Part shown: positions 2,931-5,875 of the stretch, piece by piece
How positions within the stretch are numbered: position 1 is the first letter of the stretch
How the letters are laid out: each line of letters opens with the position of its first letter
DNA from: Chitinophagaceae bacterium UBA4412
GTDB lineage: Bacteria; Bacteroidota; Bacteroidia; Chitinophagales; Chitinophagaceae
Direction: 5' to 3'
Assembly: GCA_002400445.1 (NCBI GenBank)
Contig: DGQO01000174.1
Coordinates: forward strand, 12,229-18,103
DNA: 5,875 nt
The notes under the pieces: generated by a model
Seen by the model: only the letters and a program-made list of their open reading frames with translations
The model's database searches: none
What the model was told of the DNA's origin: nothing
Translations under genes and position numbers: made by a program

Positions 2931-4739
2931 ATGACTTCAGCACAGTTTTCAATAATAGCACCTACAATTCCCACCTCCCCGGGGATATACAAATATTTCG
3001 ATATCTCCAACCAGCTCATCTACGTTGGAAAAGCAAAACACCTGCGCAAAAGGGTGAGCAGTTATTTTACAAAACATCTGCAGAGCTATAAAACTGTTGA
3101 ACTGGTAAATAGAATTCATAAAATAGAATTCACCATTGTAAACAGTGAACAAGATGCCTTCCTGCTGGAAAATTCTTTGATTAAAGAATACCAGCCCCTT
3201 TTTAACATCAATCTCAAAGACGATAAATCCTACCCATTTATCGTTGTTAAAAATGAGCCCTTCCCGCGGGTCTTTTTTACACGAAAGAAAATTAATGATG
3301 GTTCAGAATATTTTGGGCCCTATACTTCCCTGGGAAAAGTGAGAGACCTTCTGGATGTAATAAAACAAAACGTACCGCTACGCACTTGCAAACTTAACCT
3401 CAGCAAAAAAAATATCGAAAGCGGAAAATTCAAAGTGTGTTTAGAATATCATCTTGGAAATTGTAAAGGGCCATGCGAAGGCTTACAAACACCTGATGAT
3501 TACCAGGAAGGAATTATGCAGCTTAAGCATATTTTAAAAGGCAATGTAGCCCCGGTATTGCAACATTATAAAACCCAGATTAAAGATCATGCTACTAATT
3601 TAGAATTTGAAAAAGCTGCTTTGTTCCAATCTAAATTTGCGCAGTTGCAAGAATACCAGGCTAAGTCTGCGGTTGTAGGAATGCGCACGGGAACGATTGA
3701 TGTCTTTGCGATTATTGAAGAGGGAGACCAGGCGTATGTAAACTACCTCGCTGTAAATAATGGAAGTATCATACAAACCAAAACCATTATCCTCCTAAAG
3801 AAACTTGAAGAAACACCGGCAGAAATTCTCCGTTTTGCGATCGCACAACTCAGGGAAACTTTTAGCAGTGAAGCCCATGAAATCATCGTGCCCATACCTA
3901 TAGAATACCCCGAGGAAAATATTACGGTGACTATTCCGAAGGCGGGACCTAAAAAATTATTACTTGAACTCTCACAAAAAAATGCCGATTACTTTGCCGG
4001 GGAATTACACGCCCGTAAGTTGCTGAAGCTTGAAGATAAGACCAGCCAGGAAAAAGAACGCATCTTAAAACAGCTACAGCAAGACCTGCACTTAAAAGAA
4101 CTGCCGGCACATATCGAATGCTTTGATAACTCTAATTTCCAGGGGAGTTATCCCGTAGCGGCCATGGTTTGCTTTATAAATGGCGAGCCAAGTAAAAAAG
4201 ATTATCGGCACTATAACATCAAGACTGTAGCCGGAATAAATGACTTTGCCTCGATGAGCGAAGTAGTGCTACGCCGCTATAGCCGGCTTTTAAAGGAAGA
4301 AAAGTCCTTGCCTCAATTGGTTATCATTGATGGTGGAAAAGGGCAGCTAAGCGCTGCATTGGATAGCATAGAGGAATTAGGCATCACCGGGCAAATTACA
4401 CTCGTGGGCCTTGCTAAAAATAAAGAGGAGCTCTTCTTTGCCGGAGACAGCAACTCCCTGCAACTACCATGGGATAGTGAGAGTTTAAAACTCATCAGGC
4501 GCATAAGAGACGAAGTTCACCGGTTTGGTATTAGCTTCCATCGGGATAAAAGGAGCAAGGGCACTTTCAAAAACGAACTGGAAGATATTAAAGGTATTGG
4601 CAAAAGCACCGCAGATACCTTGTTGAAAGCTTTCCGCTCCGTAGCAAAAGTGAAAGAACAAACGCAGGAGCAACTTTCAGCAATTGTAGGAGAAGCAAAA
4701 GCAGTGCTGTTATTTAAGGCCTTGCATAAAGAAGTATAA
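2931..4739 (+). CDS. uvrC: UvrABC excinuclease subunit C
   Basis: A full-length 602-residue UvrC, the endonuclease that cuts damaged DNA on both sides of a lesion once UvrA has loaded UvrB. The N-terminal GIY-YIG nuclease domain (about 14-100), responsible for the 3' cut, shows GIY (18-20), YVGKAKHLRKR (31-41, with the conserved Arg41) and the metal-binding Glu80 in LLENSLIKEY. Four cysteines at 153, 170, 178 and 182 fit the family's iron-sulfur ligands. A UVR motif (LEFEKAA, about 208-243) should bind UvrB. The RNase H-like domain that makes the 5' cut has all three catalytic residues: Asp399 in FDNSN, Asp467 in IDGGKGQ and His530 in RDEVHRFG. A helix-hairpin-helix DNA-binding end (IKGIGKSTADTLLKAF) starts near 551. 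Nothing is missing, so the protein should be active. The start is the only ATG near the end of the lipoprotein gene, three bases away. Its TAA stop lies inside the first copy of the downstream repeat. Confidence 0.98.
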   Translation: MTSAQFSIIAPTIPTSPGIYKYFDISNQLIYVGKAKHLRKRVSSYFTKHLQSYKTVELVNRIHKIEFTIVNSEQDAFLLENSLIKEYQPLFNINLKDDKSYPFIVVKNEPFPRVFFTRKKINDGSEYFGPYTSLGKVRDLLDVIKQNVPLRTCKLNLSKKNIESGKFKVCLEYHLGNCKGPCEGLQTPDDYQEGIMQLKHILKGNVAPVLQHYKTQIKDHATNLEFEKAALFQSKFAQLQEYQAKSAVVGMRTGTIDVFAIIEEGDQAYVNYLAVNNGSIIQTKTIILLKKLEETPAEILRFAIAQLRETFSSEAHEIIVPIPIEYPEENITVTIPKAGPKKLLLELSQKNADYFAGELHARKLLKLEDKTSQEKERILKQLQQDLHLKELPAHIECFDNSNFQGSYPVAAMVCFINGEPSKKDYRHYNIKTVAGINDFASMSEVVLRRYSRLLKEEKSLPQLVIIDGGKGQLSAALDSIEELGITGQITLVGLAKNKEELFFAGDSNSLQLPWDSESLKLIRRIRDEVHRFGISFHRDKRSKGTFKNELEDIKGIGKSTADTLLKAFRSVAKVKEQTQEQLSAIVGEAKAVLLFKALHKEV

Positions 4740-4806
4740 AAAAAGGGCCAGGATAGAAATCCAGCCCCGCTTAAAATCCAATATCCTATGAAAAACCGAT
4801 GTAAAA
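4736..4806. repeat. Structured intergenic repeat, copy 1
   Basis: First of three near-identical elements of about 71 bases. It begins ATAAAAAAAGGGCC, where TAA (4737-4739) is the uvrC stop codon. A hairpin follows: GGGC (4745-4748) with GCCC (4764-4767) and GGAT (4751-4754) with ATCC (4759-4762), loop AGAA, with a small CA/A internal loop. After it come GCTTAAAATCC, AATATCCTATGAAAAACC and GATGTAAAA. Copy 1 matches copy 3 at essentially every base. Read on the minus strand, the hairpin is followed by seven T residues, as in an intrinsic terminator. An ATG at 4788 opens a 25-codon reading frame that is not kept in the other copies. Confidence 0.93.
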
Positions 4807-4830
4807 ATAAGCAGTTGTGTTATGCAGTGC

Positions 4831-4857
4831 AATACGGCATTTGTCGTATTTTTTTTT
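4831..4857 (+). terminator. Copy-1 trailing hairpin, probable uvrC terminator
   Basis: AATACGGC (4831-4838) pairs with GTCGTATT (4843-4850), with one G-T wobble and a four-base loop. It is followed by an unbroken run of nine T residues (4849-4857). This is the first strong intrinsic terminator on the plus strand after uvrC, about 92 bases past the stop codon. It begins exactly 24 bases after the end of repeat copy 1. Confidence 0.65.
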
Positions 4858-4870
4858 GCACATAAGTTTG
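4840..4870 (+). promoter_or_regulatory. Promoter-like sequence in front of repeat copy 2
   Basis: TTTG (4840-4843), 19 bases, then TAAGTTTG (4863-4870): both boxes and the spacing fit the Bacteroidota housekeeping promoter (TTTG, 19-21 bases, TAnnTTTG). Transcription would start near 4874-4876, right at the left end of repeat copy 2, and would read through that copy to the hairpin at 4968-4987. The -33 box overlaps the loop of the preceding terminator hairpin. Copy 3 has only a degenerate equivalent, TAAAATTG at 4996-5003, without a convincing -33 box. Confidence 0.5.
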
Positions 4871-4873
4871 CGC

Positions 4874-4943
4874 ATAAAAAAAGGGCCAGGATAAAAATCC
4901 AGCCCCGCTTAATCCAATATCCTATGAAAAACCAAGGGTAAAA
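4874..4943. repeat. Structured intergenic repeat, copy 2
   Basis: The most divergent copy. It keeps ATAAAAAAAGGGCCAGGAT, the ATCCAGCCCCGCTTAA stretch and CCAATATCCTATGAAAAACC. Differences: the hairpin loop is AAAA instead of AGAA, two A residues are missing after GCTTAA, and the end reads AAGGGTAAAA instead of GATGTAAAA. All the changes avoid the paired bases of the hairpin (4883-4905), as expected if the fold matters. The reading frame from its ATG (4924) stops after five codons, so it is not protein-coding. Confidence 0.92.
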
Positions 4944-4967
4944 TTCAACTTCTTTTAGCTGTAAAAC

Positions 4968-4989
4968 AATACTCCCCTGGGAGTATTTT
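4968..4989 (+). terminator. Copy-2 trailing hairpin
   Basis: AATACTCC (4968-4975) pairs perfectly with GGAGTATT (4980-4987) around a four-base loop, and the 3' side ends in four T residues. It begins 24 bases after repeat copy 2, the same distance as in the other two units. Apart from the outer AATAC/GTATT its stem differs from that of copy 1, with both arms changed together, so base pairing is preserved. Confidence 0.55.
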
Positions 4990-5008
4990 CGTTGCTAAAA
5001 TTGGGGGC

Positions 5009-5079
5009 ATAAAAAAAGGGCCAGGATAGAAATCCAGCCCCGCTTAAAATCCAATATCCTATGAAAAACCGATGTAAAA
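5009..5079. repeat. Structured intergenic repeat, copy 3
   Basis: Practically identical to copy 1 across 71 bases: TA7GGGCC, hairpin with loop AGAA (5018-5040), GCTTAAAATCC, CCTATGAAAAACC and GATGTAAAA. The flanks on both sides are unrelated to those of copy 1, apart from a preceding CAT shared with copy 2. The near identity points to recent duplication or to strong constraint on the element itself rather than on its surroundings. An open frame of 44 codons from its ATG (5061) runs through the gldN terminator and looks accidental. Confidence 0.93.
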
Positions 5080-5103
5080 GTACAAGCTTTAAAATGCCTT
5101 CCT

Positions 5104-5125
5104 ATACCCTAAACTGGGTATTTTT
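5104..5125 (+). terminator. Copy-3 trailing hairpin
   Basis: ATACCC (5104-5109) pairs with GGGTAT (5116-5121) around a six-base loop, followed by T residues to 5125. This is the shortest of the three trailing hairpins, and again it starts about 24 bases after the repeat. It is followed within six bases by the convergent gldN terminator, so a plus-strand RNA from copy 3 would meet two stops in succession. Confidence 0.45.
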
Positions 5126-5130
5126 GGAAA

Positions 5131-5161
5131 TTAAAAACCCTCCGAAAAGGAGGGCTTTTAA
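5131..5161 (-). terminator. Bidirectional terminator downstream of gldN
   Basis: TTAAAAACCCTCC (5131-5143) pairs with GGAGGGCTTTTAA (5149-5161) around a GAAAA loop with one mismatch. The GC core of six pairs is flanked by A residues on one side and T residues on the other, so it can work in both directions. It lies 24 bases beyond the gldN stop codon and would end that gene's message while also blocking plus-strand transcription from the repeat region. It indicates that gldN is the last gene of its operon. Confidence 0.8.
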
Positions 5162-5185
5162 TAAAATTAGCTTTGGTAAACGGGA

Positions 5186-5875
5186 TCAATAACTCCAGAG
5201 ATCCTGCTCATAATTAAAGATTTCTTCTTTAATATGCTCGCCTTCTAAAAGTTGCAACACGCCATTTTCAGAAAGACCTGGATAATTCTTTATATACTGA
5301 TCATATGGATTATCAATAGTGCTCTTTATAATGCGACCATAAAACATGCGACTCTCAAACAATTCTTCCCAACTCATACGTGCACCGAAGTTTTTGCCAT
5401 TGTACACTTCGTACTTAGCAAAGGTTTCCCGCATATCCGGATAGTAAACCCAGAAGAGTTCAGATTCACCCAGGTTTACACCTTGTGATGTAACCACATT
5501 CTTTACCGGTGCAATACCGAGTATCCGCCAGAAGAGCCTTGAACTCTCTTTATCAAATATGACTTCTTCTTTAATGCGAAACTTGTAGAAAGAATCATAG
5601 TTGATGTCATTGTACATTCTTTTTGTACCGGTGAGTTCACCATTTTCATTATAGATAGGCACTTCAACAGGCTCTCCTGTAATTACCCTTGCAACTTCAG
5701 ATGTTGTCATTGGTGTAGTAAAACGATCGTCTACAGAACTGAATACCGTAACAGTGCTGTCCTGTATTGCCTTAAGCAAGATGGAAATAAAGCGCTGGTT
5801 TCCGTTATTCTCATTGGCGGCATAACGGAAGGGAAGATTGATTTTTTCCCTTGTATCTATTTCCCGCCATATTTT
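5186..5875 (-). CDS. gldN: Type IX secretion / gliding motility protein GldN (PorN), C-terminal part
   Basis: An open frame on the minus strand enters from the right edge (first residues KIWREIDTREKINLPFRY) and ends at TGA (5186-5188), giving 229 visible residues; roughly the first quarter, with the signal peptide, is outside. No start is in view: the TTG at 5777-5779 is internal, because family sequence continues upstream of it. Diagnostic features are WREIDTREKINLPF, the EEVIFDKESSRLFWRILGIAP segment in the middle, SELFWVYYPDMR, and MSWEELFESRMFYGRIIKS with NPYDQYI near the end. GldN/PorN is a periplasmic component that joins the lipoprotein GldK/PorK in a ring under the outer membrane, part of the type IX machinery that exports cargo proteins and, in gliding species, supports motility. 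In other genomes it is last in a K-L-M-N gene cluster; the terminator directly downstream agrees with that. Confidence 0.93.
   Translation of the reverse strand, partial: KIWREIDTREKINLPFRYAANENNGNQRFISILLKAIQDSTVTVFSSVDDRFTTPMTTSEVARVITGEPVEVPIYNENGELTGTKRMYNDINYDSFYKFRIKEEVIFDKESSRLFWRILGIAPVKNVVTSQGVNLGESELFWVYYPDMRETFAKYEVYNGKNFGARMSWEELFESRMFYGRIIKSTIDNPYDQYIKNYPGLSENGVLQLLEGEHIKEEIFNYEQDLWSY

Follow-up and report, generated by a model that had tools for sequence, protein, structure and literature searches.

The closest described counterpart of the element analysed here is FopS (BTncRNA_FopS, RF04319), a paralogous family of small RNAs with which gut Bacteroides shut down sugar importers. 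According to its report, FopS represses translation of susC by pairing at the start codon, as shown with compensatory mutants, its 5' parts are bound by RbpB, which counters this repression, and the family is highly conserved within Bacteroidaceae and was noted in a phage too (PMC11697453). GibS of Bacteroides thetaiotaomicron likewise acts on start regions through a single-stranded 5' seed (PMC7366714), but it has a second seed, R2, and the promoter motif PM2 (PMC11697453); this comparison is by description, not by sequence. Rfp18 of Flavobacterium is another Bacteroidota small RNA conserved in its genus, and differs in that its predicted pairing region is a third stem-loop and that the available part of its report mentions no multicopy state (PMC9723704). 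Among the open-licence papers listed by our searches, none dealt with a Chitinophaga or Chitinophagaceae small RNA of this kind. The window studied here, a stretch of 5,875 nucleotides from Chitinophagaceae bacterium UBA4412, holds three tandem elements between uvrC and gldN. These are probably minus-strand genes for predicted small RNAs of about 60 nucleotides, members of a multicopy Chitinophagaceae family that is likely related to FopS and likely to pair at start codons and block translation. Their parts are as follows.

4738 to 4797, minus strand: copy 1 of the predicted small RNA, with its 5' end near 4797 and its U-run at 4744-4738 (covariance model match 4735-4797, 90.1 bits)
4775 to 4797, minus strand: seed of copy 1, the unpaired and invariant 5' part GGTTTTTCATAGGATATTGGATT
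4745 to 4768, minus strand: terminator hairpin of copy 1
4802 to 4809, minus strand: -7 box in the promoter of copy 1, TATTTTTA (consensus TAnnTTTG), with a TTG at 4832-4830, 20 bases upstream
4876 to 4933, minus strand: copy 2 of the predicted small RNA, with its hairpin at 4883-4906 and its U-run at 4882-4876 (model match 85.4 bits)
4939 to 4946, minus strand: weak -7 box of copy 2, GAATTTTA, with a TTG at 4969-4967
5011 to 5070, minus strand: copy 3 of the predicted small RNA, with its hairpin at 5018-5041 and its U-run at 5017-5011 (model match 89.7 bits)
5075 to 5082, minus strand: -7 box of copy 3, TACTTTTA; by eye, no TTG at the usual spacing

The three direct copies occupy 4736-4809, 4874-4947 and 5009-5082 at spacings of 138 and 135 bases, and copy 1 shares 99% of its 74 nucleotides with copy 3; this confirms the places, the spacing and the near-identity of these two copies given by an earlier, sequence-only reading of this DNA. 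For copy 2, a 2-base deletion lowers the ungapped identity to 66%; its changes (one hairpin-loop base, this deletion in the linker, and bases beyond the element) spare the stem, as that reading had also observed. The repeat is not due to chance, since a BLAST search of the genome itself returned ten copies on eight contigs with E-values down to 3e-31. On the minus strand, each element is made of a -7 box TAnnTTTG, four bases (in the commonest register), the unpaired and nearly invariant 5' part GGUUUUUCAUAGGAUAUUGGAUU, a short A-rich linker, a hairpin and a U-run. When 32 elements are aligned, only two sites change in the 22 opening columns, and the hairpin is variable. Two features favour the minus strand: a U-G pair in the hairpin of 30 of the 32 sequences would become A-C if read from the plus strand, and the T-run follows the hairpin on the minus strand. 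A plus-strand reading, with an ATG leader and an antisense start region, was rejected on these two grounds and because the frames have no common peptide. The frames opening at the ATG of each copy do have 25 and 5 codons, and the third encodes 43 amino acids (44 codons counting the stop), but they are irrelevant to the element, since none of them is on the strand of the RNA.

A covariation test, which the sequence-only reading had proposed, speaks for the hairpin. In a MAFFT alignment of the 32 sequences, not fitted to the model, four of ten pairs were changed on both sides. An alignment of 111 model matches, fitted to the model and so biased towards it (106 distinct rows from 100 of 172 sources, four of the 111 rows being weak matches of 32.8 bits and below), gave compensatory changes in all ten pairs, with 96.7% of cells pairing; its covariation score was reached by 0 of 500 shuffles, which do not remove relatedness. 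A 21-base core, searched in the genome itself with up to three mismatches, found the same ten copies as BLAST, with at most one mismatch, and one 3-mismatch site within a reading frame; the reversed-pattern control found none.

Promoters and terminators were examined in at least 123 copies from at least 119 stretches of named genomes that match an exact 20-mer. Nearly all of these records are titled Bacteroidota; one, a metagenome bin titled Streptomyces griseus, was taken for a misbinning. Among the matches listed, 119 of 123 copies passed a hairpin-plus-T-run filter, the other four comprising three failures with a readable hairpin and one copy at a contig end; in 88 of the 123 the -7 box departs from the consensus at one position at most (8.4 in shuffles), and a single register is common to 92 of the 105 copies whose box has at most two. 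Among 156 distinct upstream regions, 64 have a TTG 19-21 bases upstream (shuffle mean 9.5, maximum 17). Two further patterns stand out: CAAY-N14-19-CGTY in 11 regions (mean 1.1, maximum 5), carried by L015, L022, L076, L081, L099, L111, L116, L142, L161, L162 and L168, and TGGY-N7-TTG in five (mean 0.5, maximum 4), read as TGGC-N7-TTG at -27/-28 in L058, L092, L109 and L118. From consensus sequences we take the first to be ECF-like and the second sigma-54-like. Since 11 of 156 regions carry the CAAY/CGTY pattern, six of them with a poor TAnnTTTG box, members of the family may respond to different sigma factors. Past the U-run, TTTTTTTATGCC continues in six of the first 39 copies read (for example at 5003-5010 of the window and in L009, L015 and L018), and in several FopS copies as well; TTTTTTATGCC was found once in 800 kb of genome G123, both strands included.

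The family is widespread among close relatives. BLAST found copies in 22 of 23 genomes of the same genus (2-15 per genome) and in one of 15 genomes of other genera. The covariance model detected the element in 108 of 147 sampled genomes of the family, representing 72 of 100 genera; in the genome itself it matched 12 times at E<=0.001, rising to 13 at E<=0.01. In a class-wide sample, matches came from five of 198 genomes, three of them family members and two marginal without the 5' part. A genome of another family in the same order (G024, locus L031) holds a 43-bit match that starts with GGTTTTTCATATGATAT and has a hairpin. Divergent 5' classes also exist: GUUUUCAUAGGGUACGGAUUAAAAA marks two extra copies in the genome itself (L205 and L206), and in G144, which has 14 matches, several carry GGUUUUUCAUAGGAUAUGGUUAAAAU, UUUUCAUAGGRUA being common to the classes. 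Tandem arrays occur elsewhere, for example in L017 (three copies) and L204 (four). The sequence-only reading's proposal of a tandem small RNA family is supported by a minus-strand promoter, an invariant unpaired 5' part, a covarying terminator and occurrence throughout the family.

In its layout, this family is close to FopS. It is paralogous (12 copies here at E<=0.001), its unpaired 5' part reads GUUUUUCAUAG..UAUURGAUUU..AAG and is followed by a Rho-independent terminator (119 of the 123 copies listed), its promoter is of the sigma-ABfr type (at most one mismatch in 88 of the 123; weak in copy 2), and the genus has RRM_1 proteins while Hfq was not found. It differs from FopS in its two 2-base insertions in the 5' part, a shorter linker, a hairpin unrelated in sequence, its occurrence in another bacterial family and its RF04319 score, 16 bits against a cut-off of 56. 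The Rfam evidence points both ways. RF04319 aligns end to end with copies 1 and 3 on the minus strand (at copy 3, 5008-5071), with scores far below that cut-off (15.7 and 15.5 bits; 16 bits for copy 1 alone), copy 2 is absent from its matches in the window scan, and it has no match in the genome itself at E<=0.01. Unrelated families obtained lower E-values, both in the window scan (rimP, 0.21, for example) and in a scan of copy 1 (ar15 0.44 and cyano_het_sRNA 0.46, FopS 1.0), so that the Rfam match by itself is at chance level. A sub-threshold match to RF01055 at 5128-5168 lies on another hairpin and was set aside.

The weight of the case for FopS therefore rests on the 5' part. RF04319 has matches in eight of 198 genomes of the class, five of them above cut-off, and those FopS copies of other Bacteroidia that were legible run ...TATATTTGCANTGTGTTTTTCATAGTATTAGATTTAAGGTTAAC... 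with small changes. With these RF04319 matches rather than the published R1 letters as reference, 23 of 24 aligned letters of the 5' part agree, with two 2-base gaps, an identity equalled by 9 of 20000 dinucleotide shuffles and by 0 of 494 promoter-like windows of G123; the comparison was selected after the Rfam match was known. The spacing from the box to GUUUUU is five bases here (commonest register) and six in FopS. It is possible, if rather unlikely, that this likeness reflects convergence on an anti-start-codon sequence rather than descent, UUUUUCAU being complementary to AUGAAAAA. A joint sequence model of FopS and the Chitinophagaceae elements matched 108 of 395 genomes of the class at E<=0.01, a number well beyond what its E-values allow, so its weak matches are unreliable, and the weaker loci (L326-L336) mostly hold the motif alone with no clear terminator seen; at E<1e-5 the matches are limited to family f1 on one side and to f49, f73, f82 and f93 on the other, with no clear link between, as convergence would have it. 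Against convergence, the identity with FopS extends beyond the motif (UAUU.GAUUU..AAG) and the promoter spacing is nearly equal. The claim of the sequence-only reading that the element was undescribed therefore survives in that no Rfam family reached its cut-off in the window, and fails in that the element resembles RF04319 closely in its 5' part and architecture; its small-RNA idea is partly supported, being right yet not wholly new given the likeness to FopS.

By analogy with FopS, transcription from the minus-strand promoter would yield a small RNA of about 60 nucleotides ending at the intrinsic terminator, whose unpaired 5' end would pair with the start-codon region of mRNAs and block their translation, presumably with the help of an RRM_1 protein rather than Hfq. 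RRM_1 proteins are encoded in all 19 examined genomes of the genus, this one included, and Hfq was found in none of 30 genomes by a search that was positive in five of 14 control genomes. When the 27-nucleotide 5' part was set against the start regions (-25 to +20) of 1046 genes, a set that excludes loci selected by a target-like pattern, 0 of 100 shuffles did as well. The figures were 26 of 100 for upstream sequence and 17 of 100 for coding sequence, where the means carry a constant offset from failed foldings that is equal for seed and shuffles; a cleaned set of 1044 genes gave 15 of 60 for coding sequence. In a second genome (582 genes), 0, 11 and 18 of 100 shuffles did as well for start, upstream and coding sequence respectively, and the FopS 5' part on G123, in the rows computed, leaned the same way (2 of 60 at the start region; 59 of 60 and 56 of 60 in the controls). 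Among 29 target clusters tested, those leaning to pairing were gldN (29 start regions, 0 of 100 shuffles), gldM (19 start regions, 2 of 100), gldL (17, 2 of 100) and two others (0 of 100 each), gldM and gldL being names that we assign from the opening residues. All three gld genes are over-sampled as neighbours of the element, and we regard them as leads only.

Several observations sit uneasily with pairing, or with these loci as genes in their own right. Neither half of the 5' part beats its own shuffles at the start region. Long exact target sites across the 147 genomes numbered 27 against 16 in the control and 5 against 10, thus exceeding the control slightly or not at all, and one of the 27 is a family copy itself. 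Ten SusC-like genes, picked by a regular expression, did not differ significantly from the rest (p = 0.069), with 2 of 100 shuffles doing as well on the same ten. The promoter box of copy 2 is weak, and open frames of at least 80 amino acids enclose 11 of 189 element instances. Some of this would suit a small RNA that titrates a protein, such as the RRM_1 protein, without pairing at all, its invariant 5' part serving as the binding site: the invariant stretch exceeds the usual length of a seed, strong exact targets are missing, RRM_1 proteins are present, and RbpB binds the 5' parts of FopS (PMC11697453). We nevertheless consider titration improbable, as the complementarity is specific to start regions and for FopS compensatory mutants demonstrated that repression works through pairing (PMC11697453).

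The genomic positions of the elements bear on two weaker alternatives to a start-codon-pairing small RNA. Neighbours were counted for 189 element instances, some from overlapping loci. Once clustered, UvrC-like proteins are encoded downstream in 31 and GldN-like proteins upstream in 30; others, which from their opening residues we take to be RecQ (19), pyruvate dehydrogenase E1 beta (12), QueA (8) and RecA (6), recur as well. Among 28 loci with both uvrC and gldN, one copy lies between the two genes in 26, two in one, and three in this window; these loci were chosen for holding the element and show its recurrence, not the frequency of empty sites. The triplet would thus be a local amplification of an old single-copy gene. 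That the element is a plain terminator common to convergent genes, with a released RNA of no function, is suggested by its place at gene ends, with an upstream gene on the same strand and a convergent downstream gene in 80 of the 189 instances; it is very improbable given that the invariant piece is the unpaired 5' part, not the hairpin, and that most copies have a promoter box of their own. Least credible of all is the other option of the sequence-only reading, a mobile structured repeat of the REP or MITE kind that transposition would have spread: it would fit the copies on phage contigs and the presence of both dispersed and tandem copies, 2-15 per genome in 22 of 23 relatives from the same genus, but the syntenic sites recur across genera, as at the 28 gldN-RNA-uvrC loci and beside the presumed RecQ, pyruvate dehydrogenase E1 beta, QueA and RecA genes, the elements have their own promoter and terminator, the unpaired part is more conserved than the hairpin, and, as a weak point since hairpins were also missed at that minimum length, no inverted-repeat pair was reported in the window.

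The 20-mer also occurs in five viral contigs. A 236-kb contig (L050) holds a full element adjoining a ribonucleotide reductase gene, with a baseplate gene on the same stretch. In three near-identical contigs (L048, L049 and L051) and in L052, the same 5' end is joined to another hairpin and T-run, an unrelated terminator, behind -7 boxes read by eye as TAGCTTCG (the three) and AACCTTCG (L052), an arrangement suggestive of a portable 5' module. In L051 and L052, the two of these four contigs whose genes were examined, an integrase gene lies nearby. L051 also has, at 9684-11162, a gene for a Ro60/TROVE RNA-binding protein that runs on the strand of the small RNA and stops about ten bases short of its 5' end.

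If the relationship to FopS is real, a sister family with nearly the same seed in 72 of 100 sampled genera would make such RNAs a widespread level of gene regulation in Bacteroidota for which no Hfq was found. More speculatively, FopS might be one branch of an old start-codon-targeting RNA module of Bacteroidota, with a parallel system of three seed classes and at least three promoter types in more than 70 genera of Chitinophagaceae, a family mostly environmental as judged from record titles; phages carrying the seed, some with a different terminator, might reset the translation programme of their host, perhaps that of surface receptors. The invariant seed, the countable copies and the existence of cultivated carriers (by record title, Niastella, Flavihumibacter and Terrimonas strains, for example) offer an experimental handle.

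An 18.1-kb contig ends with the window; the draft genome to which it belongs has 3.04 Mb and is 83% complete. Its remaining features near the copies are the following.

2931 to 4739, plus strand: uvrC, convergent with the small RNA genes
5186 to 5875, minus strand: gldN, cut by the contig end, upstream of the small RNA genes and on the same strand
4833 to 4857, plus strand: TAC...GTA inverted repeat and T-run right of copy 1, by eye; terminator-like, perhaps of uvrC
4970 to 4989, plus strand: TAC...GTA inverted repeat and T right of copy 2, by eye
5105 to 5125, plus strand: TAC...GTA inverted repeat and T right of copy 3, by eye

The U-run of copy 1 overlaps the uvrC stop codon (4737-4739). 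The spacers between the copies had been called unrelated, which holds for their sequences at large and not for the TAC...GTA inverted repeat, followed by T on the plus strand, that each contains. An energy filter detected two of the three repeats, those right of copies 1 and 3. These plus-strand hairpins with T-runs, one for each copy in the window, also occur at several other uvrC-gldN loci; should they terminate uvrC, the 3' end of its transcript would lie antisense to one of the small RNAs. Further upstream in the window, at 214-789, lies a gene for an ECF-type sigma factor (sigma-70 regions 2 and 4_2).

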